NCBI GenBank assembly: GCA_028753945.1
Contig: JAPNXP010000014.1
Location: 3,038,001-3,102,000 of the forward strand
Length of the DNA stretch: 64,000 nucleotides
Origin: Hexactinellida sp. DTS-2022
Lineage: Eukaryota; Porifera; Hexactinellida
Direction of reading: 5' to 3'
This document shows positions 33,847-64,000 of this stretch, piece by piece. A model generated the notes under the pieces. It did no database searches. It saw only the letters and a list, made by a program, of their open reading frames with translations, and was not told where the DNA came from. Each line of letters opens with the position of its first letter. Position 1 is the stretch's first letter. The position numbers and the translations under genes are program-made.

Positions 33847-33914
33847 ACGTACATAGACCTCAGTGTCCTAATTTAAACAAATCTTCAATTCAACTCATAT
33901 CTTACAAGTAAATC

Positions 33915-35789
33915 GTGATTTCATTTTTAATACATATGAATAGGTTTCTAAAAAAACCCCGATTAGATACTTCTTTTGAAGAAGATATAAATAGCAGCCT
34001 AAATGAAAGTGAAACAGTACTACCATGTAAACGAGACAAAATACGTCATTACAATGTAAGTTACCTAGCTATGGGTTTTAGCTGGACTGGAGACGTTAAT
34101 TGTCCTCTCCCTGAATGCATTGTTTGTGGGGAGAAGCTATCGAACACTGCTATGGCCCCAGCTAAATTAAAGCGGCATTTTTCTACTAAACATGGCGACC
34201 TAGCAAACAAAAATGTGGACTATTTTAAGAGGCTAAAGGAGCAAAAAACGATACAGGCTGTAAATTTCCAAACTAATTTTAAAGAAAGTGATAAAGCTCA
34301 AGAGGCTAGTTATTTAGTCGCTGAACTCGTTGCTAAAGAAATGAAGGCTCACACTATTGCCGAATCTCTAATCTTACCTGCTTGTCAAGCAATGGTAAAG
34401 ACAATGTTTGGAGATGAAGCAGAGAAAGAAATTAAGAAAATTCCACTTTCTGATAACACCATCAGTAGGAGGATATGTGACATGTCAGAGGATATTGAAG
34501 CAAACGTAATAGAGAAATTGAAGGGTTCCCAGTTTGCACTTCAAGTAGATGAATCTACAGATATTAGTGGGAAGGCACAGCTTCTGAGTTTCATTCGTCT
34601 TATAGATGATGGTGTGATAATTGAACAATTTTTTTGTTGTAAAGAGCTGCCTGAAACAACAAAAGGACAAGATGTTTTTGAAACTTTGACCTCTTATTTG
34701 GGATCTTGGAATTTGTCATGGGAAATGTGTGTAGGGATTTGTACTGATGGTGCGCCCTCGATGATTGGATCTTTAAAAGGGTTTGTGTCACTTGTGAAAC
34801 AAAAGAATCCAAGTGTCATCACCACCCATTGTTTCTTACATCGTGAGGCCCTGATTGGTAAAACGATTGGAGTTGATTTGAAAATGGTATTAGATCAAGC
34901 TGTAAAAATGGTCAACTACGTGAGACAAAGACCACTCAAATCACGTCTTTTTGCTAAACTTTGCAAATCCATGGATTCAGCACATATAAAGCTCATACAA
35001 CATACAGAAGTTCGATGGCTCTCGAGAGGCAATGTCCTATCCCGTGTTTATGAACTTAAAGAAGAATTGCTCATTTTCTTTATTCAAGATGATCGAATGG
35101 AGTATTCCAGCTTACTCAGTAATGAATCATGGTGTTCAAAGTTAGCATACTTAGCTGACATTTTTCAGCACTTAAATAAATTCAATACTAACATGCAGGG
35201 AAGAGCAGCAAATGTCCTCAGTTCAACCGATAAACTTCATTCGCTCAAGCAAAAACTTGGAATATGGAAAAGCCACGCATTCAATGGGAATTTAGAGATG
35301 TTTCCTCTTGTCGCCCAGACAAAATGTCAAGAAATTATACCTCTCATTTTGGATCATCTGACTTCCTTACAGGGGAGAATCGATCATTATTTTCCTACAT
35401 TATCAATTGAGGATTATGATTGGGTCAGGAACCCATTCTTAGAGATACTATCCAGGGAAGGAATATTTACCCTTAGAGAAGAAGAAGAGCTAACGGATAT
35501 TCGTCATGATAGGACTCTGAAGTTAAAACACCGTGATTCTAGTCTGGACTCATTTTGGATTAGTATTGAAAATGAATATCCTGGCATCGCAATTAAGGCT
35601 ATAAATATTTTGTTGCTATTTTCAACAACATATATCTGCGAACTAGGGTTTTCTTCTCTTACAAACATAAAGAGTGTCAAAAGGGAACGCCTCTTGTCTG
35701 TTGAAGAAGAAATGCGAGTGTGCTTATCCACTATCAGACCACGAATAAAAGAAATATGCAAAAGTAAACAATCACAGATATCACATTAA
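33915..35789 (+). CDS. hAT transposase, BED finger, FAM200/ZBED5-like, intact
   Basis: 624 residues; cuts and rejoins DNA at the hAT ends in the nucleus. A BED zinc finger lies at residues 56-97 with ligands C68, C71, H88 and H93 (CIVCGEKLSN, LKRHFSTKH). The RNase H-like core has D212 (LQVDESTDISG), D278 (CTDGAPSMIG) and W368 (VRWLSRGN), with E576 in YICELGFSSL. Between them is the long helical insertion typical of hAT. The C-terminal dimerisation part is present (SVKRERLLSVEEEMR). Length is normal for the family (about 550-650). The first ATG is at 33915, but the second, at 33936 (MNRFLKKPRL), fits the family start better. No introns, stops or shifts. The promoter is presumably in the ~400-bp 5' region but no motif stands out. 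Confidence 0.95.
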   Translation: MISFLIHMNRFLKKPRLDTSFEEDINSSLNESETVLPCKRDKIRHYNVSYLAMGFSWTGDVNCPLPECIVCGEKLSNTAMAPAKLKRHFSTKHGDLANKNVDYFKRLKEQKTIQAVNFQTNFKESDKAQEASYLVAELVAKEMKAHTIAESLILPACQAMVKTMFGDEAEKEIKKIPLSDNTISRRICDMSEDIEANVIEKLKGSQFALQVDESTDISGKAQLLSFIRLIDDGVIIEQFFCCKELPETTKGQDVFETLTSYLGSWNLSWEMCVGICTDGAPSMIGSLKGFVSLVKQKNPSVITTHCFLHREALIGKTIGVDLKMVLDQAVKMVNYVRQRPLKSRLFAKLCKSMDSAHIKLIQHTEVRWLSRGNVLSRVYELKEELLIFFIQDDRMEYSSLLSNESWCSKLAYLADIFQHLNKFNTNMQGRAANVLSSTDKLHSLKQKLGIWKSHAFNGNLEMFPLVAQTKCQEIIPLILDHLTSLQGRIDHYFPTLSIEDYDWVRNPFLEILSREGIFTLREEEELTDIRHDRTLKLKHRDSSLDSFWISIENEYPGIAIKAINILLLFSTTYICELGFSSLTNIKSVKRERLLSVEEEMRVCLSTIRPRIKEICKSKQSQISH

Positions 35790-42069: not shown

Positions 42070-42520
42070 TTGATTAAAATGAAAATGAAAAGGGCATACA
42101 ACAGTAGAAATATTAAAAGGAAAAGGAAGCTTTTACTCGATGAACAGATTAAACTGTTACCAAAAGTGGACATGTTTTTACTTCCACGAAGTCTACTAGT
42201 AACAGTGAACAGATTGGATTCACAGAAGATTATATTGCTATACCCACCCAATAAAGTTTGGATTCTCTACCGTCGCCCCATTCGTCGGCATCGAACATGT
42301 TGGAGAGAAGGAAGAACTAGCAAGCATAACACTCCGAGAGAATAATGTTGGTAGCTGGAATAAGCTCAGTGAAGAAGACATTTGATTTTGGATCAATGAA
42401 GGACCCAGCATAGCAATCTATATACTAAGGCAATGGCAGTCTATTGAATTTATGGACCATGGACTGCGAAGTAATGCTAATTTTGAATTACATTATGGAG
42501 GCTGTTTTAGCTAATATTTT
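42070..42520 (+). pseudogene. hAT (ZMYM1-like) transposase N-terminal relic
   Basis: The plus strand is open from 42070 with MKMKRAYNSRNIKRKRKLLL and LLPKVDMFLL, a basic N-terminus. After frameshifts it gives YPPNKVW and SWNKLSEEDI, a stop, then FWINEGPS, which resembles the 'W....D....YWIxxGP' segment just before the TTF-type zinc finger of ZMYM1-like hAT transposases. The rest is missing. Low sequence length and decay keep this tentative. Confidence 0.4.
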
Positions 42521-42720
42521 ATATAAAACTAACTAACTAGAGTATATTTAATCATCCCTATCTAATAAATGCATTTACTAATGATTCTGACAACATTCAA
42601 AAATATCATATTTGGTAACACCGGAATCTTTCAACTAAATTATATTGAAGAAGTAAAGATTGTCATAAGTTATAATAAAAATCTCATAAATACATGCTAT
42701 ACTATAGTCAGGAAACCTCT

Positions 42721-42829
42721 TCCAAACAGGTTAAAGGTACGCAGGGTAAAATGAATTAAATCAAAGGACAAAATCAATTAGGAAAAAATCAAAGCAATTA
42801 AAATCAAATTAAAGAATCGATTCAAAAAT
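42721..42829. repeat. Satellite left edge: inverted monomer half plus AT-rich spacer
   Basis: CCAAACAGGTTAAAGGTACG at 42722-42741 is an inverted satellite unit. About 85 bp of A-rich spacer (AATCAAAGG/AAATCAATTA words) follows before the direct-oriented array begins at about 42830. The edge can therefore fold into a hairpin with the first monomers. Confidence 0.75.
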
Positions 42830-45800
42830 TCTGCGTACCATTAACCTGTTTGGCGTGCCATTAAACTGTTTGGCGAACCATTAACCTGTTTGGCGTACCA
42901 TTAAACTTCTCGGGGTACCATTAACCTGTTTGGCGGACCATTAACCTCTTCGGCGTACCATTAACCTCTTCGGATATCATTAACCTGTTTGGCCTACCAT
43001 TAACATGTTTCGCGTGCAATAACCTCTTCGGCGAACCAGTAACATGTTTGGGGTGCCATTAAACTGTTTGGTGTACCATTAACCTCTTCGGAGTACGGTT
43101 AACCTGTTTGACGTGCCATTAAACTTTTGGTGTACCATTAAACTCTTCGGCGTACCATTAACCTCTTCGGCGTGCCATTAACTTTTTCAGTGTAACATCT
43201 TCGGTGAACAAAAAACTTTTTCAGAACACCATTAACCAGTTTGGCTTGCCATTAACCTCTTCGGTGTACCATTAACCTCTTTAGCGTACATTAACCTGTT
43301 CGGCGTAACATTAACCTGTTGGCGTACAATAAACCTTTTCGGTGTACCATCCTTGGCTTACCATTAACCTCTTCGGTGTACCATTAACCTCTGCGGTGTA
43401 CCATTAACCTCTGTGGCGTCCAGTAAATGTTTTCAGTGTACCATATTTGGTACACCATTAACCTGTTTCGCGTACCATTAACTTGTTTCGCGTACCATCT
43501 TTGGCGTACAATCTTTGGCCCACCATTAACCTCTTTGGAACACCATGAACCTCTTTGGTGTACCATTAACCTCTGCGGCGTATCATTAACATGTTTGGCA
43601 TACCATTAACCTGTTTGGCGTACAATTAACCTCTTCGGTGTACCATTAACCTGTTTGGCGTGCCATTAACATGTTTCGCGTCCATTAAACTCTTCTGAGT
43701 AAAAATAAGCTGTTTGGCGTACCATTAAACTTTTCGGGGTACCATTAACCTCTTCGGTGTACCATTAAACTCTTCGGTGCACAATTAACCTCTTTAGCGT
43801 AACATTAAACTCTTTAGAGTGCCATTAACCTGTTTGGCGTATCATTAACCTGTTTGGCGTACCATTAACCTCTTTAGATTACAATTAACCTGTTTGGCGT
43901 ATCAAAAACCTGTTTGGCGTACCATTAACCTAACGACGTACCATTAACTTTTTCTGTGTACCATCTTCGGTGTACAATTAACTTTTTCAGTGTACCTTTA
44001 ACCAGTTTGGCGTACCATTAACCTCTTCGGTGTACCATAAACCTCTTTGGTGTACCATTAACCTGTTGGCGTACCATTAACCTGTTTAGTGTACCATTAA
44101 AATGTTTGGCATAACATTATGCTCTTTGGCGTACCATTAACCTGTTTCGCGCACGATTAAACACTTTGGTGTAACATTAACCTCTTTCACGTGCCATTAA
44201 CCTCTTTGGCGTACCATGGACTTTTTCAGTGTACTATCTTTGGTATACCATTAACCTCTTTGGAGTACCATTAACCTCTTTGGCGTACCATCTTTGACCT
44301 GCAATTAACTTGTTTGGCGTAACATTAACCTCTTCGCCGTCCCATTAACCTGTTTGGCGTAACATTAACATCTTTGGCGTCCATTAACTTTTTCAGTGTA
44401 CAATCTTTGGTATACCATTAACCTGTTTCGCGTGCCATCTTTGGCGTACAATCTTTGGCGTACCATTAACCTCTTTGTAACACCATGAACGTCTTTGGTC
44501 TACCTTTAACCTCTTCGGCGTGACATTAACCTGTTTGGTATACCATTAACCTGTTTAGCGTGTTAATAACCTGTTTCGCGTACCATTAACCTCTTCGGCG
44601 TACCATTAACCTGTTTGGCTTACCATTAAACTGTTTGGCGTAACATTAACCTTTTAGGAGAACCATTAACATCTTCGGTGTACTATTAACCTCTTTAGAG
44701 TACCATTAACCTCTTCGGTGTACCATTAACCTCTTTGGCGTACCATTAACCTCTTCGGTGTACCATTAACCTCTTTGGCGTAACATTAACCTGATTCGCG
44801 CACCATTAAACACTTTGGTGTACCATGAATCTCTTTCACGTACCATTAACCTCTTTGGCGTATCATTAACCAGTTTGGAGTAACTTTAACCTCTTCGGTG
44901 TACCATTAACATCTTTAGCGTAAAATTAATCCGTTTGGCGTACTATTAACCTCTTCGGCGTACCATATTTGGCGTAGCATTAACCTCTTCGGAAACCATT
45001 AACCTCTTCAGTGTACCAAAAACATCTTCGGTGTACAATTAACTTTTTCAGTGTACAATCTTCGGTGTACCAATAACATTTTCAGTGTACCATTCACCAG
45101 TTTGGCGTACCATTAACCTCTTCTGTGTACCATTAACCTCTTCGGCGTACCATTAACCTGTTTGGCGTACCATTAACCTCTTCGGTCTACCATTAACATC
45201 TTTAGCGTACCATTAACCTGTTTGGCGTACCATTAACCTCTTTGGTGTACCATTAACCTCTTCGGTCTACCATTAACATCTTTAGCGTACCATTAACCTC
45301 TTTGGTGTACCATTAACCACTTCGGTGTACCATTAACCTCTTTAGCGTACCATTAAACTATTTGGCTTTCCATTAACCTCTTCGGCGTACCATATTTGGC
45401 GTGGCATTAACCTCATCGGAAACCATTAACCTCTTCGGCGTACTAAAAACCTCTTCGGTGTACAATTAACTTTTTCAGTGTACATTTTTCGGTGTATCAA
45501 TAAAATTTTCAGTGTACCATTAACCTCTTCTGTGTACCATTAACAGCTTCGGCGCACCATTAACCTGTTTGGCGTACCATTAACCTCTTCGGAGTACCAT
45601 TAACATCTTTAGCGTACCATTAACCTGCTTGGCGTACCATTATTAACCTCTTCGGCGTACCATATTTGGCGTACCATTAACTTCTTCGGTGTACCATTAA
45701 ACACTATGGTGTATCATTAACCTGTTTGACGTACCATTAACCTGTTTGGCGTACCATTAACCTCTTCGCCGTCCCATTAAACTGTTTCGCGTGCCATTAA

Positions 45801-48117
45801 CTTCTTCGGCGTACCATTAATTTGTTTGCCGTACCATTAACCGATTCGGTGTACCATTAACATCTTTAGCGTACCATTAACCTGTTTGGCGTATCATTAA
45901 CCTGTTTGTCGTAACATTAACCTGTTTGACGTACCATTAACCTCTTCGGTGTACAATTAACTTTTGAAGTGTATCATCTTTGGTATACCATTAACCTCTT
46001 CGCCGTCCCATTAACCTGTTTCACGTGCCATTAACCTCTTCGGCGTAGCATTAACCTGTTTGTCGTACCATTAACCTGTTTGGCGTACTATTAACATTTT
46101 CGGTGTACGATCTTTGGCGTACGATTATCCTCTTCGGTGTACCATTAACCTGTTTGGCGTGCCATTAACATGTTTCGCGTACCATTAACCTCTTCGGCGT
46201 TCCATTAACCTGTTTGGCGTACCATTAAACTGTTAGGCGTACCATTAATCTCTTCGGTGCACCATTTACGTGTTTCGCGTACCATTAACCTGTTTGGTGT
46301 AGCATTGAACTCTTTGGCGTGCCATTACCTTTTTAGCGTACCATTAACCTGTTTGGCGTATCATTAACCTGTGTGGCGTACAATTAACCTCTCCGGTGTA
46401 CCATTAACCTCTTCAGCGTACCATTAACCTGTTTGGCGTTCCATTAACCTCTTCGGATTACCATCTTTGGCGTACCATTAACCTCTTTGGTGTACCATTA
46501 ACCTCGTTGGTGTACCATTAACCTCTTCAGTGTACCATTAACCTCTTTAGCGTGCCATTAACCTGTTTGGCGTACCATTAGCCTCTTCGGAGTACCATCT
46601 TTGGCGTACCATTAAGCTCTTCAGTGTACCATTAACTTTTTCAGTGTACCATTAACATGTTTGGCGTACCATTAACCTCTTCGGTGTACCATTAACCTCT
46701 TTGGTGTACAATTAACCTGGTTGTCGTACCATTAACCTGTTTAGCGTACCATTAACCTGTTTGGCGTACAATTAACCTCTTTGGCGTACCATTAACCTGT
46801 TTCGCGTACCATTAACCTCTTTGGCGTACCATTAACTTTTTCAGTGTACCATCTTTGGAAAACCATTAACCTCTTTGGGGTACCAATAACCTGTTTGGCG
46901 TACCATCTTTGACGTACAATTAACCTGTTTGCGTACCATTAAACTTTCGCCGTCCCATTAACCTGTTTGGCGTACCATTAACCTATTTGCGTCCATTAAC
47001 TTTTTCAGTGATATATCTTTGGTATACCATTAACCTGTTTCGCGTACCATTAACCTGTTTCGCGTAACATCGTTGGCGTACATTCTTTGGCGTACCATTA
47101 ACCTCATTGGAACACCATGCACCTCTTTGGTGTACCATTAACCTCTTCGACGTACCATTAACCTGTTTGGTATACCATTAACCTATTTGGCGTACCATTA
47201 ACCTCTTCGGTGTACCATTAACCTCTTTAGAGTACCATTAACCTCTTCGGTGCACCATTAAACTCTTCGGTGTACCATTAACCTCTTTTGCGTGCCATTA
47301 ACATATTTGGCGTACCATTAACCTGTTTGGGGTAGCCATTAACCTGTTTGGCGTACCATTAACCTATTTGCGTTCATTAACTTTTTCAGTGATATATCTT
47401 TGGTATACCATTAACCTGTTTCGCGGACCATTAACCTGTTACGCGTGACATTTTTGGCGTACCATCTTTGGCGTACCTTAACTTCATTGGAACACCAAGA
47501 ACCTCTCTGGTGTACCATTAACCTCTTCGACGAGCCATTAACCTGTTTGGTAAACCATTAACCTATTTGGCGTACCATTAACCTCTTCGGTGTACCATTA
47601 ACCTCTTTAGAGTACCATTAACCTCTTCGGTGCACCATTAAACTTTTCGGTGTACCATTAACCTCTTTAGCATGCCATTAACATATTTGGCGTACCATTA
47701 ACATATTTGGCGTACCATTAACCTGTTTGCCGTAGCCATTAACTTGTTCGGCGTACCATTAACTTTTTCGGTGTACCATCTTTGGCGTACGATTAACCTC
47801 TTCGACGTACCATTAACCTGTTTGGCGTACAACTAACCTCTTTGGTGTACCATTAACCTGTTTGGCGTAACATTAACCTTATCGGCGTACTATTAACCTC
47901 TTCGGTGTACCATTAACCTCTTTAGAACACCATTAACCTCTTCGGTGTACCATTAAACACTTCGGTGTATTATTAACCTCTTTAGCGCACCATTAACCTC
48001 TTTAGCGTGCCATTAACCTGTTTGGCCTACCATTAACCTCTTCGGTGTACCATTAACCTCTTTAGAGTACCATTAACCTCTTCGGTGTACCATTAAACTC
48101 TTCGGGGTACCATTAAT
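42830..48117. repeat. 20-bp satellite, left array (~5.3 kb)
   Basis: Roughly 260 tandem units of TTAACCTGTTTGGCGTACCA and the variant TTAACCTCTTCGGTGTACCA. Common changes are GTTT/CTTC/CTTT in the middle and GCGTA/GTGTA/GAGTA at the end. Shorter units built on CCATCTTTGGCGTA (about 14 bp) recur throughout, as do units with TTTTTCAGTGTACCA. A ~380-bp segment is duplicated locally (CCTATTTGCGTCCATTAACT-type block near 46984 and again near 47364). Open frames in the array are artefacts. Confidence 0.97.
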
Positions 48118-48535
48118 CATAGCCTACTATACATAAGGCCTCACAGTAAAATATGAAATCTGGACCAGGGATGCGGTCGCAGCCGGGAAACGAAATTGCA
48201 ATTTTTTATCAAATTTAGTGACATTCCGCTTAAAAACAGATATTCCGGTGACTAGCAGTCGATATATATCGAAAAATATGCATATTAACCACAAAGCTAA
48301 TTTTAGAATTTTGTGTTGTTATTCACCCATAATATAGATAAGTGGTTTATGGTATATAACATTCAAAGCAAATTTATACTTTTATTACGTTCTACAGCTA
48401 AATAATCAATCTTGTTATTTATTTATGTCATTCCCATTAGTACAATACCCCTACAGAGCCCATTTCCCTATTAATTAATTAACCTTATAATCTGATTTAT
48501 GCTACTACCATTAATTTATTAGTTTTTTTCTAACG

Positions 48536-49335
48536 ATGCCCAACAGTTGTGCCGTTTTCGGATGCAAAATCAACTACAACGACGATCACCGTGTCCCAGT
48601 TTTTAAACTACCTACGAAACCAGATGACCTAAGACACAGATGGCTTCAGGTTCTTCGGAGAGACGATTTACAATCATTCAAGGGGGTTTACGTGTGTGCA
48701 AATCATTTTCGCCAGGAGGATGTTGAGTATACTCACAAAGTTCCAAACGGAGATGGTACTTATCGTGAAATTCCAAGAGTCAACCCAAAGCTAATAGATG
48801 GTGCCGTTCCAGTTTTCTACCAGGACACCCTTCAATCTGTTCTCAATCTATTAGCTCCAAAAAGCGCAGATGTGTGTCACCTACCTCAAAAGATGAGGAA
48901 ATGTTCAATGAAGCATTAACACTTAGCCTGGCATCTGAGAGCAAAGAGAAAGAGAAATATCAGATCAATTGTTTCCAGGATATCCAAGCTAAGTTACCTT
49001 TGCTTTCCCTACCTAAAACATGGTCTTTATGGTACCCAGATGATCATAGTCTAATTTATATGCTACCTCTACTGGCAGAACACAATATCATTGTCAACAC
49101 CCATATATTAGTGTCCTTCGATTTGTCAGTTAGAGCTTATCGTAATGGAGAAATTTTACCAATTCCAATTTGCTCGATCAGCGATATACGACACCTTGAA
49201 TCAATTCTCTGTGAGATTTCTTTATCCCCTCGTCCTGTTCTGTCCACTGAATCTGTTTCAAAGACCGTTAATGAGACTTTATCAATAGCCAGGGACTTCT
49301 TTAATATAGGGACTGTAAACTTCGTTTTACGGTAA
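48536..49335 (+). pseudogene. P-element transposase, THAP DNA-binding part, frameshifted
   Basis: N-terminal part of a P-element transposase. The first frame (48536-48919) is a THAP zinc finger of about 95 residues: C5 and C10 (MPNSCAVFGC), W36, C54 and H57 (VCANHF), and AVPVF at 90-94, the expected C2CH set. It binds the element's internal sites. The reading then moves one base near 48850 into a frame with SKKRRCVSPTSKDEEMF (possible nuclear signal) and NCFQDIQAKLPLLSLPKTW, running to 49335. The last ~15 codons come from the nested palindrome that begins at 49290, so the protein is cut there. Position and orientation match the catalytic part downstream. Confidence 0.9.
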
Positions 49336-50602
49336 AATTAGCGTAGGCCTAAAACAGTATTGTTACTTATTGATATCCCGTAATCCGCTAATGCTAGACA
49401 TAGGAAATGTATTATTGTCGTATAGGAAGTCATATTTTGGGAGTCCAACGGTAATATTGGTTTATCGAAAATTTTTGTGGAATGTAAGTTATGCGATTTT
49501 CACACCCTTCCATATATGGTAATATTGTTAAAATCTCGAGATTACTTAACTTTATACATATGAAATATATTATTGGCGAATGGGAAATGGGAATTCATAT
49601 TTAGGGACTTAGTAGATCACATTGATTTACCTAAGGCGTTCCCATTAGCCTATATTATTATTTTGGCACTCTCCATAGGAGGATTGCCCCGACCCTGTTT
49701 TGTAGTTTAGCTAATACTTACATATCAGATATCTGTGATTATGTTGTTTATTAAAAAACAACAAGGCTGGATTCGGTTAACCGGTTACCGTTGCTGACAT
49801 CGGTTAACGATTAGAGATTTTATTAACCAGTTAGCCGGTCTGTTGAATAACAGTAGAGTTATTGGGAAATTAATGTATAAAGTATTAAAAAATTTTTAAT
49901 TTTATCAGAATATGTAGTCCTAAATCCATTTCTCATCACCACTTAATACATTTTATTGGACAACATTGATTTAAATATAGATTTGAAAGAAACTTATCAA
50001 GATTTTTTAATAATGTAAGAATTAGCTAAACTACAAAACAGGGTCGGGGCAATCCTCCTATGGAGAGTGCCAAAATAATAATATAGGCTAAGGGGAACGC
50101 CTTAGGTAAATAAATGTGATCTACTGAGTCCCTAAATATGAATTCCCATTTCCAATTCGCCAATAATATATTTCATATGTATAGAACTAACTAATCTCGA
50201 GATTTTAACAATATTACCATATATGGAAAGGTGTGAGAATCGTATAACTTACATTCCACAAATATTTTCGATAAACCAATATTACCGTTGGACTCCCAAA
50301 ATATGATTTCCTGTACGAAAATGATACATTTCATATGTATAAAGTAAGTAATCTCGAGATTTTAACAATATTACCATATATGGAAGGGTGTGAAATCGCA
50401 TAACTTACATTCCACAAATATTTTCGATAAACCAATATTACCGTTGGACTCCCAAAATATGACTTCCTATACGACAATAATACATTTCCTATGTCTAGCA
50501 TTAGCGGATTACGGGATATCAATAAGTAACAATACTGTTTTAGGCCTACGCTAATTTTACCGTAAAACGAAGTTTACAGTCCCTATATTAAAGAAGTCCC
50601 TG
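49290..50602. mobile_element. 1.3-kb palindromic element inside the P element
   Basis: Begins CAGGGACTTCTTTAATATAG and ends in its exact complement. The arms (about 49290-49718 and 50023-50602) are near-perfect inverted copies. The right arm carries an extra ~170-bp tandem duplication (50165-50340 against 50340-50520), so the arms differ in length. The central ~300 bp contains GGTTAACCGGTTACCG words. It lies exactly between TLSIA of the THAP part and ALAKDNIQL of the next part, so it interrupts the coding sequence. A clear target duplication is not seen. Non-autonomous. Confidence 0.88.
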
Positions 50603-50605
50603 CTT

Positions 50606-52763
50606 TAGCGAAGGACAATATCCAACTACTCATTAACAAAGTACTTTCATCTAATGGTGAATTAGAGTTAATAAATTAACTGATTCCCCCGAAATATCCA
50701 GGCTTCAATTCATCCAATGTCAGCTTGAAAACAGTATTGTACCCAAACACAGGCGGAGGTACAACATCCTCACACAGGTTATGGCACTTAAAGCACATTT
50801 AATTTCACCAGCATGTTATAAGTATCTTCAACAAATGGCTTGTCTATCTCTGCCTCATGTCAACACTTTGGAGAAGTTGTATTCTTCATTCGGACTTGAG
50901 TGTGAATTCTTTCCTTTCCTCAAGCAAGCGACAAATTCTTTCACTGAAGATGAGAAACATATCGTTATGCAAATGGACGAAATTCACGTAAAATCTGATG
51001 TCACATTTAAAGGAGGCAAGATATATGGTTCTAGTCTAAGCCCAGAAGATCCAATAAAGACTGTATTCGCTTTTATGGTATCAAGTCTCCAGAAAAAAAT
51101 GGTCTACTATAGTTCGTCTATTACCATGTGCCTCTCTTTCCGCTGAGAAGATATTCCCCATCATACTCGCTTGTATTAAAGATATCGAAACTTGTGGTTT
51201 ATGTGTGAATGTAATCTCAACAGATAACTATCCTCTTAACGTCAAGTTATTCAAACTATTCTCTCCTGTTGGTAAGCTTGAAACATGTGTACCTCATCCT
51301 TGTGTTCGTAACAGGCCTCTGTATCTCACTTTCGATTTCGTCCATATTTTGAAATCTGTACGAAACAATTGGCTAAATCTGAAGTCCAGTTATAAGTATT
51401 TTTTCTACCCCGATTTTGACGATATTGGATTTGATTATTGTTCATTTCCTTTAAAGGTGTGCTGCGCTTCTTTCCCAGATGTACGCGCCCTTTATAGCTC
51501 AGAGAAGGAGATTGTCTTGCAAAATTAGCCCCGCGGTTGACATTTAAATCATGTTATCCTTCTGTATTGGAACGCCAAAATGTCAAATTAGTCCTGAAAG
51601 TAATCCATGAGTCCACGATTGCTGCTCTAGCTCTCCAAAATGATCAACGTTGCAGTGAGTTGAAAACAAACACCTCTAGTTTCGTCAAAATTCTACTCAC
51701 GTTATGGAACATGTTTAATGTAAATGTTCCATATAAGCATATTTGTTTAAATGATTCTTCATGTCGCCCTTTCACAGTTAATGACGAACGCTTTATCTTT
51801 TTAACCAGGATAGTAAATTGGCTAGAGACTTGGGAATCACACTCTTTGAAAGATTGCAAATTATGCAAGCAAACTTTTACAAGCTTAAGACACGCGTGCA
51901 TTGTACTCCCTCAAATAGTTAATTATCTAACTGGACAGTGTGGATATGCTTACATTTTAACACGTTTCTTACAGACAGATCCACTAGAGCACCATTTCGG
52001 ACTTTATCGGATGATGTCTGGATCAAATTACCATGTTTCGTACCTTCAAATTTTAGAAGCTGAACGTCGTTTGAAGATCTCCAATCTATTAACTCTATTT
52101 TCTAATACCAACACTCAACCATCCAGCCAAATTTCTATGGAGGAATTTATTCAGTCTTTCTCTCCCATTTATAGCATACATACAGATACAGAAATTGACA
52201 TTGATCCTTTTCTTGATGCTCTATCAGATGTATCAGCCATTGAGTGCGATACCCCAACACTCCAGTCACTAGCTTTTATTGCTGGGTATGCTGCCTACCA
52301 ATACCTTAAGCATTCTTCACCGTGCTTAATATGCCGAGATCTTTTAATTATCGACAAAGATATTCTAGTAGATGAATCCTTCGAATTCCGGTACCAACTA
52401 CTGCAGCTTTCTGATCGTGGTGGTCTAAAGTATCCTTCAGAGCTTGCATTGGAATCTTTAATTATTGTTTGGAAGATTCTAACTATAATCCAAAGTAATA
52501 GTGAACTTATGTCCCTGTTGATAGAAGGTCAAACTAGAAAGATTTTAGTAACACTTGCTTTTGGCTCCCTAACTGGTCTTGATAGTGGTTTTGAAGGTTG
52601 GAGAACAACTTGTCCTTCTTGTAATGTGAAAGGTTCAACCATTCTATCAAGTCTAGTTCGGAGTGAAGCAAATTGTCTAATTGCAAATCTTGTCAAGAAT
52701 TACAATTCGAGCCTTACTTTAAAGGGATTAGAAAAGAGGAAATTGAAAAAGTTCGATTCCTGA
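50606..52763 (+). pseudogene. P-element transposase, catalytic part, in broken frames
   Basis: Catalytic part of a P-element (THAP9-like) transposase in several pieces. From 50606: ALAKDNIQLLINKVLSS to a stop near 50680. Then about 50690-51146: RLQFIQCQLENSIVPKHRRR and VMQMDEIHVKSDVTFKGGK, with a catalytic D (residue 66 from the ATG at 50781). Next 51205-51528: ISTDNYPLNVKLFKLF (second D) and FVHILKSVRNNWLNL. Last, 51515-52763: a 408-codon frame with YPSVLERQNVKLVLK, then GYAYILTRFLQTDPLEHHFG (E at residue 151) and LQSLAFIAGYA, ending VKNYNSSLTLKGLEKRKLKK. Each of the three catalytic residues is present but frames change at least twice, so it is inactive as read. Confidence 0.9.
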
Positions 52764-53079
52764 TTATTTAGATACGAGTTAGTTGTCTTATGTGAAATAA
52801 CAATATCTACGAGAGTAAATGGAGGTTTTCTAGTAGTTTCTGTATTGTGTATATTATGTGACTGTATTCAAACTCACAAAGTAAAAAGATTAATGGTATA
52901 ATGAGAGTATACGTATTACTTTATTACAGTTGCTAGTTATTGAGGAAGCTGTTTTCAAGCAGTAAGCCACTATATTTGATCTAAAATTGCAATACCATAA
53001 TTTTCGTTTCCCGGGGGCGACAGCATCCCTGGTCCAGATTTCATAATTTACTGGGAGGCCTTATGTATTGTAGGCTATG

Positions 53080-56000
53080 CATTAACCAATTTAGCGTACC
53101 ATAAACGACTTTAGCGTACCAAAAACAAGTTTGGCGTACCATTAACCTGTTTAGCGTGCCATTAACCTCTTCGGTGTACAATTAACCTCTTTAGCGTACC
53201 ATTAACCTGTTAGGCGGACAATTAACATCTTCGGTGTACAATTAACCTGTTTGGCGCACCATTAACCTCTTCGATGTACCATTAATCTCTTTAGAATACC
53301 ATTAACCTGTTTGGCGTTACATTAACCTCTTCGGCGTAAAATCTTTGGCGTACCATTAACCTTTTCGGTGTACCATTAACCTCTTTGGTGTACCATTAAC
53401 CTCTTCGGAGTACCATTAACCTCTTTAGCGTACCATTAACCAGTTTGGCGTACAATTAAGCTCTTCGGTGTGCCATTAACCTGTTTGGCTTACCATTAAA
53501 CTGTTTGGCGTACATTAACCTCTTCACCGTACAATTATCCTCTTTGGTGTGCAATTAACCTGTTTGGCGTACATTAACCTTTTCGGCGTAACATTAACCT
53601 GTTTGGCGTACAATTAAACTATTTGGCGTACCATTAACCTGTTTCGCGTAACATTAACCTCTTTGGAGTACCATTAACCTGTTTCGCGTACCATTAACCT
53701 CTTTGGCGTCCATTAACTTTTTCAGGGTAACATCTTTGGTGAACCATTAACCTGTTTTGCGTACCATCTTTGAAGTACCATTAACCTGTTTGGCGTACCA
53801 TTAACCTGTTTGGAGTCCCACTGACCTCTTTGGTGTACTATTAAACTCTTTGGCGTACGATCTTTGACGTACAATTAACCTGTTTGGCGTACAATTAACC
53901 TCTTCGCCGTCCCATTAACCTCTTTGGCGTCCCATTAACCTCTTTGGCGTCCATTAACTCTTTCAGTGTACCATCTTTGGTATACCATTAACCTCTTTGG
54001 TGAACCATTACCTGTTTGGAGTGCCATCTTTGAAGTACCATTAACCTGTTTGGCGTACCATTAACCTTTTCGGTGTACCATTAACCTTTTTAGTGTACCA
54101 TTAACTTGTTAAGCGTATCATTAACCTGTTCACGTAACATTAACCTCTTTGGCGTACCATTGACCTGTTTCGCGTAGCATTAACCTCTTTGGCGTACCAT
54201 TAACCTGTTTCGCGTACCATTAACCTCTTTGGAGTCCCATTGACCTCTTTGGTGTACCATTAAACTCTTTGGCGTACGATCTTTGACGTACAATTAACCT
54301 GTTTGGCGTACCATTAACCTCTTCACCGTCCCATTAACCTGTTTGGCGTGCCATTAACCTGTTTGGCGTGCCATTAACCTGTTTGGCGTACCATCTTTGG
54401 CGTACCATTAACCTTTTCGGTGTACCATTAACCTCTTTGGTGTACCATTAACCTCTTCGGAGTACCATTAACCTCTTTAGCGTACCATTAACCAGTTTGG
54501 CGTACAATTAAGCTCTTCGGTGTGCCATTAACCTGTTTGGCGTACAATTAAAATATTTGGCGCACCATTAAACTCTTCGCCGTACAATTAACTTATTTGG
54601 TAAACCATTAACCTGTTTGGCGAACCATTAACCTTTTCGGGGTACCATTAACCTCTTCGGTGTACCAATAACCTCTTTAGAGTACCATTAACCTGTTTGG
54701 CGTATCATTAACCTGTTTAGCGTACCATTAACCTCTTCGGTGTACCATTAACCTGTTTGGATTAGCATTAAACTCTTTGGCGTACTATTAACCTTTTTAG
54801 CGTACCATTAACCTGTTTCGCGTATCATTAACCTGTGTGGCGTACCATTAACCTCTTAGGTGTACCATTAACCTCTTTAGCGTACCATTAACCTCTTCGG
54901 TGTACCATTAAACTCTTCGGTCTACCATTAACCTCTTTAGCGTGCCATTAACATCTTTAGCGTACCATTAACCTTTTCAGTGTACTATCTTTGGTATACA
55001 ATTAACCTCTTTGGTGAACCATTAACCTGTTTGGCGTACCATCTTTGAAGTAACATTAACCTGTTTGGCGTACCATTAACCTGTTTGGCATAGCATTAAC
55101 TTCTTTGGTGTACCATTAACCTCTTTAGAGTAACATTAACCTCTTTGGCGTAGCATTAACTTTTTCGGTGTACCAACTTTGGCGTACGATTAACCTCTTT
55201 GGTGTACCATTAAGCTGTTTGGCGTACCATTAACTTTTTCTGTGTACCATCTTGGCATCCATTAACTTTTTCAGTGTACCATCTTTGGTTAACCATTAAC
55301 CTGTTTCGCGTGCATTAACTTGTTTCGCGTGCCATCTTTGGCGTACCATATATGGCGTGACCATTAACCTCTTCGGTGTACCATTAACCTCTTTAGAGTA
55401 CAATTAACCTCTTCGGCGCACCATTAAACTCTACGGTGTAACATTAACCTCTTTAGCGTGCCATTAACCTGTTTGGCGTACCATTAACCTGTTTGACGTA
55501 CCAGTAACTTGTTCGGCGTACCAGTAACCTGTTTGGAACACCATTAACCTTTTCGGTGCCCATCTTTGGCGTACCATTAACCTCTTCGGTGTACCATTAA
55601 CCACTTTGGCGTGCCATTAACATCTTCGGGGTACCATTAACTTTTTCAGTGTACCAATAACCTGTTTCGCGTCAAAATAACCTCTTTGGCGTACCATTAA
55701 CCTGTTTCGCGTACCATTAACCTGTTTCGCGTATCATTAACCTGTGTGGCGTACCATTAACCTCTTAGGTGTACCATTAACCTCTTTAGCGTACCATTAA
55801 CCTCTTCGGTGTACCATTAAACTCTTCGGTCTACCATTAACCTCTTTAGCGTGCCATTAACATCTTTAGCGTACCATTAACCTTTTCAGTGTACTATCTT
55901 TGGTATACAATTAACCTCTTTGGTGAACCATTAACCTGTTTGGCGTACCATCTTTGAAGTAACATTAACCTGTTTGGCGTACCATTAACCTGTTTGGCAT

Positions 56001-59000
56001 AGCATTAACTTCTTTGGTGTACCATTAACCTCTTTAGAGTAACATTAACCTCTTTGGCGTAGCATTAACTTTTTCGGTGTACCAACTTTGGCGTACGATT
56101 AACCTCTTTGGTGTACCATTAAGCTGTTTGGCGTACCATTAACTTTTTCTGTGTACCATCTTTGGCATCCATTAACTTTTTCAGTGTACCATCTTTGGTT
56201 AACCATTAACCTGTTTCGCGTGCATTAACTTGTTTCGCGTGCCATCTTTGGCGTACCATATATGCCGTGACCATTAACCTCTTCGGTGTACCATTAACCT
56301 CTTTAGAGTACAATTAACCTCTTCGGCGCACCATTGAACTCTACGGTGTAACATTAACCTCTTTAGCGTGCCATTAACCTGTTTGGCGTACCATTAACCT
56401 GTTTGACGTACCAGTAACTTGTTCGGCGTACCAGTAACCTGTTTGGAACACCATTAACCTTTTCGGTGCCCATCTTTGGCGTACCATTAACCTCTTCGGT
56501 GTACCATTAACCACTTTGGCGTGCCATTAACATCTTCGGGGTACCATTAACTTTTTCAGTGTACCAATAACCTGTTTCGCGTCAAAATAACCTCTTTGGC
56601 GTACCATTAACCTGTTTCGCGTACCATTAACCTCTTTAGCGTACTTTTAAATTTTTCAGTGTACCATCTTTGGTATACCATTAACCTCTTTGGTGAACCA
56701 TTACCTGTTTGGAGTGCCATCTTTGAAGTACTATTAACCTGTTTGGCGTACCATTAACCTTTTCGGTGTACCATTAACCTTTTTAGTGTACCATTAACTT
56801 GTTAAGCGTATCATTAACCTGTTCACGTAACATTAACCTCTTTGGCGTACCATTGACCTGTTTCGCGTAGCATTAACCACTTTGGCGTACCATTAACCTG
56901 TTTCGCGTACCATTAACCACTTTGGAGTCCCATTGACCTCTTTGGTGTACCATTAAACTCTTTGGCGTACGATCTTTGACGTACAATTAACCTGTTTGGC
57001 GTACCATTAACCTCTTCACCGTCCCATTAACCTGTTTGGCGTGCCATTAACCTGTTTGGCGTGCCATTAACCTGTTTGGCGTGCCATTAACCTGTTTGGC
57101 GTACCATCTTTGGCGTACCATTAACCTTTTCGGTGTACCATTAACCTCTTTGGTGTACCATTAACCTCTTCGGAGTACCATTAACCTCTTTAGCGTACCA
57201 TTAACCAGTTTGGCGTACAATTAAGCTCTTCGGTGTGCCATTAACCTGTTTGGCGTACCATTAAAATATTTGGCGCACCATTAAACTCTTCGCCGTACAA
57301 TTAACTTATTTGGTAAACCATTAACCTGTTTGGCGAACCATTAACCTTTTCGGGGTACCATTAACCTCTTCGGTGTACCAATAACCTCTTTAGAGTACCA
57401 TTAACCTGTTTGGCGTATCATTAACCTGTTTAGCGTACCATTAACCTCTTCGGTGTACCATTAACCTGTTTCGCGTACCATTAACCTGTTTGGCTTAGCA
57501 TTAAACTCTTTGGCGTACTATTAACCTTTTTAGCGTACCATTAACCTGTTTGGCGTATCATTAACCTGTGTGGCGTACCATTAACCTCTTAGGTGTACCA
57601 TTAACCTCTTTAGCCTACCATTAACCTCTTCGGTGTACCATTAAACTCTTCGGTCTACCATTAACCTCTTTAGCGTGCCATTAACATCTTTAGCGTACCA
57701 TTAACTTTTTCAGTGTACTATCTTTGGTATACAATTAACCTCTTTGGTGAACCATTAACCTGTTTGGCGTACCATCTTTGAAGTAACATTAACCTGTTTG
57801 GCGTACCATTAACCTGTTTGGCATAGCATTAACTTCTTTGGTGTACCATTAACCTCTTTAGAGTACCATTAAACTCTTTGGCGTAGCATTAACTTTTTCG
57901 GTGTACCAACTTTGGCGTACGATTAACCTCTTTGGTGTACCATTAAGCTGTTTGGCGTACCATTAACTTTTTCGGTGTACCATCTTTGGCATCCATTAAC
58001 TTTTTCAGTGTACCATCTTTGGTTAACCATTAACCTGTTTCGCGTGCATTAACTTGTTTCGTGTGCCATCTTTGGCGTACCATATATGGCGTGACCATTA
58101 ACCTCTTCGGTGTACCATTAACCTCTTTAGAGTACAATTAACCTCTTCGGCGCACCATTAAACTCTACGGTGTAACATTAACCTCTTTACCGTGCCACTA
58201 ACCTGTTTGGCGTACCATTAACCTGTTTGACGTACCAGTAACTTGTTCGGCGTACCAGTAACCTGTTTGGAACACCATTAACCTTTTCGGTGCCCATCTT
58301 TGGCGTACCATTAACCTCTTCGGTGTACCATTAACCTCTTTGGCGTGCCATTAACATCTTCGGGGTACCATTAACTTTTTCAGTGTACCATCTTCGGATA
58401 CCATTAACTTTTTCAGTGCACCAATAACCTGTTTCGCGTCAAAATAACCTCTTTGGCGTACCATTAACCTGTTTCGCGTACCATTAACCTCTTTAGCGTA
58501 CTTTTAAATTTTTCAGTGTACCATCTTTGGTATACCATTAACCTCTTTGGTGAACTATTACCTGTTTGGAGTGCCATCTTTGAAGTACCATTAACCTGTT
58601 TGGCGTACCATTAACCTTTTCGGTGTACCATTAACCTTTTTAGTGTACCATTAACTTGTTAAGCGTATCATTAACCTGTTCACGTAACATTAACCTCTTT
58701 GGCGTACCATTGACCTGTTTCGCGTAGCATTAACCTCTTTGGCGTACCATTAACCTGTTTCGCGTACCATTAACCTCTTTGGAGTCCCATTGACCTCTTT
58801 GGTGTACCATTAAACTCTTTGGCGTACGATCTTTGACGTACAATTAACCTGTTTGGCGTACCATTAACCTCTTCACCGTCCCATTAACCTGTTTGGCGTG
58901 CCATTAACCTGTTTGGCGTACCATCTTTGGCGTACCATTAACCTTTTCGGTGTACCATTAACCTCTTTGGTGTACCATTAACCTCTTCGGAGTACCATTA

Positions 59001-62000
59001 ACCTCTTTAGCGTACCATTAACCAGTTTGGCGTACAATTAAGCTCTTCGGTGTGCCATTAACCTGTTTGGCGTACCATTAAAATATTTGGCGCACCATTA
59101 AACTCTTCGCCGTACAATTAACTTATTTGGTAAACCATTAACCTGTTTGGCGAACCATTAACATTTCGGGGTACCATTAACCTCTTCGGTGTACCAATAA
59201 CCTCTTTAGAGTACCATTAACCTGTTTGGCGTACCATTAACCTGTTTAGCGTACCATTAACCAATTCGGTGTACCATTAACCTATTTCGCGTACAGTTAA
59301 CCTGTTTGGCTTAGCATTAAACTCTTTGGCGTACTATTAACCTTTTTAGCGTACCATTAACCTGTTTGGCGTATCATTAACCTGTGTGGCGTACCATTAA
59401 CCTCTTAGGTGTACCATTAACCTCTTTAGCGTACCATTAACCTCTTCGGTGTACCATTAAACTCTTCGGTCTACCATTAACCTCTTTAGCGTGCCATTAA
59501 CATCTTTGGCGTACCATTAACCTTTTCAGTGTACTATCTTTGGTATACAATTAACCTCTTTGGTGAACCATTAACCTGTTTGGCGTACCATCTTTGAAGT
59601 AACAATAACCTGTTTGGCGTACCATTAACCTGTTTGGCATAGCATTAACTTCTTTTGTGTACCATTAACCTCTTTAGAGTACCATTAAACTCTTTGGCGT
59701 AGCATTAACTTTTTCGTTGTACCAACTTTGGCGTACGATTAACCTCTTTGGTGTACCATTAAGCTGTTTGGCGTACCATTAACTTTTTCGGTGTACCATC
59801 TTTGGCATCCATTAACTTTGTCAGTGTACCATCTTTGGTTAACCATTAACCTGTTTCGCGTGCATTAACTTGTTTCGCGTGCCATCTTTGGCGTACCATA
59901 TATGGCGTGACCATTAACCTCTTCGGTGTACCATTAACCTCTTTGAGTACAATTAACCTCTTCGGCGCACCATTAAACTCTACGGTGTAACATTAACCTC
60001 TTTAGCGTGCCATTAACCTGTTTGGCGTACCATTAACCTGTTTGACGTACCAGTAACTTGTTCGGCGTACCAGTAACCTGTTTGGAACACCATTAACCTT
60101 TTCGGTGCCCATCTTTGGCGTACCATTAACCTCTTCGGTGTACCATTAACCTCTTTGGCGTGCCATTAACATCTTCGGGCTACCATTAACTTTTTCAGTG
60201 TACCATCTTCGGTGTACCATTAACATTTTCAGTGTACCAATAACCTCTTTAGCGTACCATTAACCTCTTCGGTGTACCATTAAACTCTTCGGTCTACCAT
60301 TAACCTCTTTAGCGTGCCATTAACATCTTTAGCGTACCATTAACTTTTTCAGTGTACTATCTTTGGTATACAATTAACCTCTTTGGTGAACCATTAACCT
60401 GTTTGGCGTACCATCTTTGAAGTAACATTAACCTGTTTGGCGTACCATTAACCTGTTTGGCATAGCATTAACTTCTTTGGTGTACCATTAACCTCTTTAG
60501 AGTACCATTAACCTCTTTGGCGTAGCATTAACTTTTTCGGTGTACCAACTTTGGCGTACGATTAACCTCTTTGGTGTACCATTAAGCTGTTTGGCGTACC
60601 ATTAACTTTTTCGGTGTACCATCTTTGGCATCCATTAACTTTTTCAGTGTACCATCTTTGGTTAACCATTAACCTGTTTCGCGTGCATTAACTTGTTTCG
60701 CGTGCCATCTTTGGCGTACCATATATGGCGTGACCATTAACCTCTTCGGTGTACCATTAACCTCTTTAGAGTACAATTAACCTCTTCGGCGCACCATTAA
60801 ACTCTACGGTGTAACATTAACCTCTTTAGCGTGCCATTAACCTGTTTGGCGTACCATTAACCTGTTTGACGTACCAGTAACTTGTTCGGCGTACCAGTAA
60901 CCTGTTTGGAACACCATTAACCTTTTCGGTGCCCATCTTTGGCGTACCATTAACCTCTTCGGTGTACCATTAACCTCTTTGGCGTGCCATTAACATCTTC
61001 GGGCTACCATTAACTTTTTCAGTGTACCATCTTCGGTGTACCATTAACATTTTCAGTGTACCAATAACCTGTTTCGCGTACCATTAACCTCTTCGGTGTA
61101 CCATTAACCTCTTTGGCGTGCCATTAACATCTTCGGGCTACCATTAACTTTTTCAGTGTACCATCTTCGGTGTACCATTAACATTTTCAGTGTACCAATA
61201 ACCTGTTTCGCGTCAAAATAACTTCTTTGGCGTACCAATAACCTGTTTCGCGTCAAAATAACCTCTTTGGTGAACCATTACCTGTTTGGAGTGCCATCTT
61301 TGAAGTACCATTAACCTGTTTGGCGTACCATTAACCTGTTTGGCGTCCCATTGACCTCTTTGGTGTACCATTAAACTCTTTGGCGTACGATCTTTGATGT
61401 ACCATTAACCTGTTTGGCGTTCCATTAACCCCTTTGCCGGCCCATTAACCTGTTTGGTGTACCATTAACCTCTTTAGAGTACCATTAACCTCTTTGGCGT
61501 ACCATTAACTTTTTCGGTGTACCATCTTTGGCGTACGAATAACCTCTTCGGTGTACCATTAACCTCTTTGGTGTACCATTAAGCTGTTTAGCGTACGATC
61601 TTTGACGTACCATTAACCTGTTTGGCGTACCATTAACCTCTTCGACGTCCCATTAACCTCTTTGGCGTCCCATTAACCCCTTCGGCGTCCATTAACTTTT
61701 TCAGTCTACCATCTTTGGTATATCATTAACCTGTTTCGAGTACCATTAACCTGTTTCGCGTGCCATCTTTGGCGTACCATATATGGCGCGACCATTAACC
61801 TCTTCGGTGTACCATTAACCTCTTTAGAGTACCATTAACTTCTTCGGCTCACAATTAAACTCTTCGGTGTAACATTAACCTCTTTAGCGTGCCATTAAAC
61901 TGTTTGGCGTACCATTAACCTGTTTGGGATACCATTAACCTCTTCGGCGTACCATTAACCTGTTTGGATAACCATTAACTTTTTCAGTGCACCATCTTTG

Positions 62001-63790
62001 GCTTACCATTAACCTCTTCGGTGTACCATTAACCTCTTCGGCGTACCATTAACCTCTTCGGGCTACCATTAACTTTTTCAGTGTGCCATCTTCGGTGTAC
62101 CATTCACTTTTTCAGTGTACCATTAACCTGTTTGGCGTACCATTAACCTCTTCGGTGTACCATTAACCTTTTTAGTGTACCATTAACTTGTTAAGCGTAT
62201 CATTAACCTGTTTCACGTACATTAACCTCTTTGGCGTACCATTAACCTGTTTCGCGTAGCATTAACCTCTTTTCTCAAAGTCTTTTAAATTAACCTGTTT
62301 CGCGTACCATTAACCTCTTTGGCGTCCATTAACTTTTTCAGTGTACCATCTTTGGTATACCATTAACCTGTTGCGCGTACCATTAACCTGTTTCGCGTAC
62401 CATTAACCTGTTTCGCGTGACATCTTTGGCGTACAATTAACCTCTTTGGAACACCATGAACCTCTTTGGTGTACCATTAACCTCTTCGGGATACCATTAA
62501 CCTGTTTGGTATACCATTAACCTGTTTCGTGTACCATTAATCTCTTCGTTGTACCATTAACCTCTTTAGAGTACCATTAACATCTTCGGTGTACCATTGA
62601 CCTCTTCGGCGTACCATCTTTGGCGTACCATTAACCTCTTCGGTGTACCATTAACCTCTTTAGTGTACCATAACCTCTTCGGTTACTATTAACCTCTCTA
62701 GCGTACCATTAACCTGTTTGTCGTACCATTAACCTCTTCGGAGTACGATCTTTGGCGTACCATTAACCTCTTCGGTGTACCATTAACCTCTACGGCGTAC
62801 AATTAACCTCTTCGGCGTACCATTAACCTTTTCAGTGTACCATCTTCGGTGTACAATTAACTTTTTCAGTGTGCCATCTTCGGTGTACCATTCACTTTTT
62901 CAGTGTACCATTAACCTGTTTGGCGTACCATTAACCTTTTCGGTGTACCATTAACCTTTTTAGTGTACCATTAACTTGTTAAGCGTATCATTAACCTGTT
63001 CACGTAACATTAACCTCTTTGGCGTACCATTGACCTGTTTCGCGTAGCATTAACCTCTTTGGCGTACCATTAACCTGTTTCGCGTACCATTAACCTCTTT
63101 GGAGTCCCATTGACCTATTTGGTGTACCATTAAACTCTTTGGCGTACGATCTTTGACGTACAATTAACCTGTTTGGCGTACCATTAACCTCTTCGCCGTC
63201 CCATTAACCTGTTTGGCGTCCCATTAACCTCTTTGGCGTCCATTAACTCTTTCAGTGTACCATCTTTGGTATACCATTAACCTGTTTCGCGTACCATTAA
63301 CCTATTTCGTGTACCATTAACCTCTTCGGTGTACCATTAACCTCTTTAGAGTACCATTAACATCTTCGGTGTACCATTAACCTCTTCGGCGTACCATCTT
63401 TGGCGTACCATTAACCTCTTCGGTGTACCATTAACCTCTTTAGTGTACCATGACCTCTTCGGTTACTATTAACCTCTCTAGCGTACCATTAACCTGTTTG
63501 GCGTACCATTAACCTCTTCGGAGTACGATCTTTGGCGTCCCATTAACCTCTTCGGTGTACCATTAACCTCTACGGCGTACAATTAACCTCTTCGGCGTAC
63601 CATTAACCTTTTCAGTGTACCATCTTCGGTGTACCATTAACTTTTTCTGTGTACCATTAACCTATTTGGCGTACCATTAACCTCTTCGGTGTACTATTAA
63701 CCTCTTTGGTGTACCATTATCCTCTTTTGCGTAAAATTAACCTGTTTCTCGTACCATTAACCTCTTTGGCGTACCATTAACCTGTCCAGT
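53080..63790. repeat. 20-bp satellite, right array (~10.7 kb) with higher-order repeats
   Basis: Roughly 530 units of the same satellite as 42830-48117, in the same orientation. Landmark words reveal higher-order copies. CCTGTGTGGCGTACC starts at 54832, 55741, 57565 and 59381. CATATATGGCGTGACC (or one-base variant) starts at 55347, 56257, 58081, 59897, 60720 and 61778. Spacings are ~910, 1824, 1816, ~823 and ~1058. Copies within a period differ by only a few bases over more than 1 kb. The array ends at about 63790 with CCTGTCCAGTGCAAG. Confidence 0.97.
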
Positions 63791-64000
63791 GCAAGAAAAG
63801 TCGTCTCCAATAAAAGTTTAATTGTTTCTATCCCGACTGCGAATATATCAATTGATCATTTTACCTCTAGCTCTACCTATCCTGTACTATGCAATGCACC
63901 CTTTCAAGACATCCGTAACTTGTTCAAATCCGATAAGTTTAATGTCCTAAAATGAGCACCCAAATTGACAGCTAAAGCGTGTTGGCCCTCTAGGTTAGAA
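63791..64000 (+). other. Right flank of the satellite; open but unassigned
   Basis: Non-satellite sequence. One plus-strand frame is open for about 50 codons (SLIVSIPTANISIDHFTSSS to a stop near 63955). I do not recognise it and it is too short to call. It could be the end of a gene or relic interrupted by the satellite. Confidence 0.2.

Follow-up and report, generated by a model that had tools for sequence, protein, structure and literature searches.

The window analysed here, a stretch of 64,000 nucleotides from Hexactinellida sp. DTS-2022, carries towards its right end a long tandem array of a 20-bp unit, which is interrupted by a separate transposon, is preceded by a conserved leader and is flanked on both sides by pieces of another dispersed repeat. 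The feature starts at 42710 in the conserved leader, to the left of the array edge, and comprises with its surroundings the following parts:

42409 to 42709, plus strand: left flank, part of another dispersed repeat that was the target of insertion and recurs at other loci
42703 to 42717, plus strand: left junction (attL-like), consisting of target TA (TT in the relative L021), the 8-bp spacer TAGTCAGG and then AAACC
42710 to 42836, plus strand: 5′ leader, starting with the terminal inverted repeat GGAAACCTCTTCCAAACAGGTTAAAGGTACGC, found at 40 loci, with a sharp left boundary and differing flanks
42833 to 48116, plus strand: array block 1, located by TRF and divided by segmentation into 275 units of ~20 bp
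48118 to 53079, plus strand: inserted P-element-like transposon of 4,962 bp, interrupting the array and separate from the array-bearing element
49290 to 50602, no strand assigned: foldback-type insertion nested in the P-like transposon, with ~285-bp inverted ends that are 98% identical
53080 to 63785, plus strand: array block 2, located by TRF and divided by segmentation into 563 units, with repeated stretches at offsets mostly of 0.8-5.4 kb
63786 to 63787, no strand assigned: right junction, at which truncation within the array has removed the tail, right terminal repeat included, as well as ~1.8 kb of the target repeat
63787 to 64000, plus strand: right flank, the same target repeat, resuming ~1.8 kb downstream and 98% identical to L021 2823-3036

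The remainder of the window to the left (1-42000) has 36% GC and includes a 625-aa open frame (33912-35789) that by eye resembles a hAT-type transposase.

TRF reported the array as two 20-bp runs of 271.6 copies (42833-48116, score 4063) and 550.5 copies (53080-63783, score 5989), and segmentation by cyclic alignment divided the blocks (42833-48116 and 53080-63785) into 275 and 563 units respectively, 838 units over 15,990 bp, with units 86-87% identical to the consensus GCGTACCATTAACCTGTTTGG. This agrees with the ~800 units over ~16 kb claimed in an earlier note on this DNA, and the single orientation claimed there is likewise borne out, since a scan of the window at up to four mismatches gave 562 unit matches on the plus strand and 0 on the minus strand. 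The terminal inverted repeat GGAAACCTCTTCCAAACAGGTTAAAGGTACGC at the start of the leader contains the unit sequence in inverted orientation, and this unit-like stretch is absent from the scan because it lies in another register. Two co-existing variant classes and a recurring short unit of ~14 bp had also been described, and both are present: TTAACCTCTTCGGTGTACCA and TTAACCTGTTTGGCGTACCA account as exact copies for 44 and 34 of the 595 full-length units, with intermediates between the two classes being common, and 85 units are short (15 bp or less), the most frequent of which, ATCTTTGGCGTACCA (12 of 85), is a 15-mer by segmentation and has a period of 14 bp by TRF. A coding array was rejected by inspection, because with a period of 20 bp each frame runs into TAA.

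The two blocks that had been reported were both located, but they are really one array, split by the P-element-like transposon. This transposon encodes a THAP domain (6.6e-12) and P-transposase-like pieces that fall below the Pfam cut-off, has inverted ends of ~60 bp and more, disrupted frames, and flanks (CATTAAT and CATTAAC) that form a 7-bp near-duplication. On the outer sides of the element, positions 42409-42716 are 96% identical to L021 696-1004, so that the left flank of the window stops on L021 at 1004 and the right flank restarts at 2823, and the left junction alone of the window is comparable with this relative, in which the target reads TT-TAGTTAGT-AA. Read against L021, the window copy inserted in a dispersed repeat and later lost its tail plus ~1.8 kb of that repeat. 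At 21 kb it is the longest copy seen, appears to be old and damaged, and carries neither a 3′ end nor a recombinase gene.

A genome search found the 127-bp leader at 40 loci including the window (40 scored of 48 candidates), the other copies being 85-99% identical to that of the window and some of them partial, and the 140-bp tail, which is absent from the window copy, at 40 loci as well (40 scored of 53 candidates). Pairing by position, which was done by hand, gave 33 leader-tail pairs of 728-12,430 bp (median 1,873 bp), a few of them with a partial leader or tail, and left 7 leaders, the window's included, and 7 tails unpaired. The members share a layout in which a left end beginning GGAAACC and a leader of ~127 bp are followed by a 20-bp array in one orientation and by a tail of ~140 bp ending in GGTTTACAGTA(G). 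No description of a repeat family of such a kind was found in the open-licence literature searched (titles, the starts of abstracts and passages of PMC3212892).

The earlier note had classed the array as a satellite, and a true satellite, centromeric or heterochromatic, that transposons had captured by chance would be in keeping with the ~16 kb of units in the window, with the high copy number and with the duplicated stretches. Against this, every array cluster among the matches listed sits in a member of the mobile-element family: 19 of 19 in one search, which gave 498 matches, and all 28 in a second (246 matches), the latter comprising 26 leader-tail pairs, the window and a copy on C13, the last two having one end each (leader only in the window, tail only in the C13 copy). 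These tallies were made by reading the match lists against leader and tail positions, and the searches were leaky, in that the 498-match search listed no window and the 246-match search neither the place of its own query nor block 2, so stand-alone arrays may have been missed. The 33 paired members, however, amount to just 102 kb, ~0.09% of the 112.4-Mb genome (18 contigs), and the unit consists of end sequence of the element itself, as set out below. A satellite in the usual sense is therefore not supported, and we regard capture of a true satellite as extremely improbable.

Alignment of copies with differing flanks gave a sharp left boundary of the element. In most copies the left end reads GGAAACCTC... 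and the right end ...GGTTTACAGTAG. Three end types match across both ends (CTCTTCC/GGAAGAG, CTCACCC/GGGTGAG and CTCTTCA/TGAAGAG); in a fourth, with ...GTCGTGG on the right, the two ends do not match, and in one end type the inner arms match poorly (14-19 of 22 in six pairs). Joining the ends of a copy yields a predicted sequence GGTTT-ACAGTAGG-AAACC, that is, inverted arms round an 8-bp spacer. The arms of these virtual junctions match at 22 of 22 positions in 18 of 28 pairs, and on average at 16.5 of 18 positions in register as against at most 7.8 at shifts of 1-3. According to passages of PMC3212892, the typical site of a tyrosine recombinase consists of a pair of 11-13 bp inverted repeats that lie 6-8 bp apart.

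The flanks show a pronounced base preference, assessed at 34 positions with a background near one third. On the left, T is found at -8 in 34 of 38 flanks (2.5e-13) and at -7 in 33 of 38 (4e-12), and A at -1 in 25 of 38 (2e-5); on the right, A occupies the second base in 25 of 36 flanks (6e-6) and the third in 35 of 36 (2e-16), with weaker signals at a few other positions, for example T at the fourth right base (23 of 36). These counts cover 38 of 39 left ends (L055 was unmatched, and L001 and L010-L012 were omitted as duplicates) and 36 of 38 right ends (L080 and L088 were dropped because the wrong stretch had been picked), with L029 and L032, which are without a standard right end, outside the 36. 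The T/A enrichment in these flanks therefore defines the target as TT-N8-AA, which is exact in 16 of 28 pairs and shares its geometry with the predicted end junction. Position 7 of the spacer is G in all four targets compared (L041, L024, L030 and L021). At three sites, namely L040 (with the empty site L041), L028 (with the diverged, near-empty site L024) and L030 (a tandem-repeat target), comparison revealed no target duplication. The left junction retains six bases of the target and the right junction those of the element, placing the crossover at spacer position 6-7, and this polarity is nearly uniform among the junctions, L029 being the sole mirror arrangement and L032 fitting neither.

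Helitrons are characterised by a 5′ TC, a 3′ CTRR and insertion between A and T, or alternatively between T and T. The ends of the present family, GGAAACC and CAGTA(G), have neither the 5′ TC nor the 3′ CTRR, and the empty sites show neither A^T nor T^T, the target being an 8-bp-spaced dyad. This argues against a non-autonomous element of Helitron or Helentron type that has a tandem array at its centre and is mobilised by the genome's many Helitrons, and in which a recombinase gene would be a chance passenger; that the three closest recombinase genes all sit in the family argues against it too. Such an element would nevertheless leave no target duplication, the inverted ends are slightly asymmetric, the genome contains at least 151 Helitron_like_N matches, and parts of PMC7492417 and PMC12628747 describe elements derived from Helentrons that have satellite-like arrays at their centre. 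On balance we consider this origin improbable. Many of the Helitron_like_N matches lie in open frames of ~1,700 or 1,900 aa, pointing to a Helitron-rich genome, perhaps with young copies. The genome also gave two nuclear-receptor zinc-finger matches (controls none), which point to an animal and perhaps to a sponge, and a Wnt search was without match, its controls being silent too.

Tyrosine-recombinase matches number 33 in the genome (48 of 48 candidates scored), and the top three are all in family members, where the gene sits within the region of the array. L031 contains a broken tyrosine-recombinase gene inside the element, C16:4490288 is a 96% match inside a 12.4-kb member that spans 4483097-4495526, and C13:3145389 is a 78% match with an array, a tail and the terminus to its right. 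The L031 and C16 copies share 96.7% identity across a 3.2-kb stretch that extends into the array, and the C13 copy has 74-83% DNA identity over the gene region. The gene is found with two tail types, and in all three cases it has the same orientation and the array on its right side. This recurrence is difficult to reconcile with a MITE-like element of a cut-and-paste DDE transposon that carries an internal minisatellite, and in which the recombinase would be a nested transposon. The long inverted ends would suit such an element, and MITEs with internal arrays are known (parts of PMC12628747), but no target duplication is present at the three sites compared, and we judge this origin very improbable.

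The protein of the C13 copy matches Pfam Phage_integrase weakly (18 bits against a cut-off of 27.1) over residues 65-221, which cover most of the domain. Among four paralogues scanned, L094 alone passes (2.7e-8, 34.2 bits) and is 39% identical to the C13 protein, L091 falls just short (25.9 bits), L093 is weak (13.2 bits) and L092 has no Phage_integrase match; nor did Pfam find one in pieces from L031 and L051, and a 121-aa query gave nothing. In the alignment of C13 with L094, the R, K, R, H and Y motifs are kept, as judged by eye, with the C13 frame scrambled round the second R. An intact gene was seen in no member, the frame being broken in L031, which is rearranged, and in L051, while in C13 a stretch of it is scrambled (by eye). 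An open frame upstream of the recombinase gene resembles a zinc finger, below the Pfam cut-off. A search of the PDB with the element's own protein found no solved structure, and six-frame Pfam searches confined to L050 and L051 found no match to reverse transcriptase. The sub-threshold score of the element protein and the broken genes are counterpoints to assigning the family to this recombinase, as is the position of the remaining 30 of the 33 recombinase matches, which reach at most 71% and coincide with no leader or tail position on the lists.

The dyad predicted for the joined ends, the TT-N8-AA target and the presence of the top three recombinase genes in members therefore indicate a Crypton-like transposon whose ends resemble loxP and whose body resembles a satellite, and the array in the window is very probably the internal tandem body of one copy of this tyrosine-recombinase DNA transposon family. 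Cryptons encode a tyrosine recombinase with conserved R..R..H..Y residues and have a circular double-stranded intermediate and, unlike DIRS and Ngaro elements, no reverse transcriptase; those of fungi and oomycetes have terminal direct repeats of 4-6 bp, and Cryptons are without terminal inverted repeats. Since the terminal inverted repeats of the present family match fully in 18 of 28 pairs, it is Crypton-like and not a typical Crypton. In the mechanism that we envisage, the recombinase would join both ends to form a circle, whose junction would be an inverted-repeat site with an 8-bp spacer, and recombination of the circle with a TT-N8-AA site in a chromosome would leave no duplication. Gene-less copies, such as that of the window, would rely on a recombinase provided in trans. 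A counterpoint is that nearly all junctions are of a single polarity, whereas a simple two-strand exchange between differing spacers might yield the two polarities in more equal numbers.

Related features occur in other systems. Tn916-type integrative elements are bacterial and combine a tyrosine recombinase with T-rich/A-rich sites and unlike coupling sequences; the present family is similar in these respects and differs in its nearly fixed junction polarity and eukaryotic host. Sites of the loxP/FRT type also have two inverted arms round a 6-8 bp spacer (the general form given in passages of PMC3212892), but in our family the target half is conserved mainly at TT/AA, with spacer agreement confined to approximately AG in positions 6-7. 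The CryptonA and CryptonI elements described in passages of Kojima & Jurka (2011; PMC3212892) resemble it in having a tyrosine recombinase as the sole transposase-like gene seen, no target duplication and many gene-less copies, and no terminal repeats were found in the animal Cryptons treated there, whereas in our family the inverted ends measure at least 22 bp and are predicted to form a dyad with an 8-bp spacer, the target is itself a dyad, and a large tandem array derives from the end sequence. Cg_HINE of oyster, a Helentron-associated element, is similarly dispersed, its ends being conserved and its central tandem array variable in length; according to parts of PMC7492417 its monomers are mostly 140-180 bp and its longest array has 29.3 monomers, compared with 20 bp and up to 838 units here, and its ends and target differ from those of the present family. 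The boundaries of Cryptons are difficult to define, and in this family the ends are sharp, empty sites exist, a junction can be predicted and a target motif is readable, which makes integration directly testable.

Concerning the origin of the array, the inner 21 bp of the right terminal inverted repeat and the consensus unit agree at 20 of 21 bases, so that the array amounts to repeated end sequence, and the leader is similar at its inner end, in direct orientation, to the 3′ terminus of the element. Both similarities suggest that the array may have arisen by growth from a copied right end. Such a run of end sequence would possibly provide accessory binding sites and would expand by unequal exchange. 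The family also adds a kind of element to the carriers of satellite-like arrays, which include Helentrons and MITEs, with a monomer that is its own end sequence, and ties the birth of a satellite-like array to the presumed recognition sequence of a recombinase. More tentatively, the 20-bp arrays could be working parts, serving as putative docking sites for the recombinase via its zinc-finger-like N-terminal region, where they would pair the ends or raise the local concentration, with array size under selection for mobility. If this were so, satellite-sized arrays would be by-products of a recombination system.

The two blocks differ in their internal repetition. In block 2 a diagonal scan detected 150-bp windows that recur with 93-100% identity at numerous offsets, most of them between 0.8 and 5.4 kb and some reaching 9.3 kb, which high-stringency self-BLAST had missed, and in block 1 just two such offsets, of 380 and 427 bp. 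Correspondingly, 65% of the 40-mers of block 2 recur inside their own block, compared with 5% in block 1, and 3-4% of those of either block are also present in other fetched copies. The pattern in block 2 fits repeated unequal exchange, apparently in a lineage apart from those sampled. The earlier proposal that variants were mixed by exchange rather than slippage is hence upheld for block 2, where larger stretches were apparently exchanged, but not for block 1, where there is almost no such signal. Array size varies widely among members, from 13 unit motifs (L029) to 396 (L025), some of these counts including tail motifs, and to the 838 units of the window. In L036 (1660-2080), and likewise in related members, a spacer of ~440 bp with TGCATGCAACA-type motifs lies between the array and the tail.
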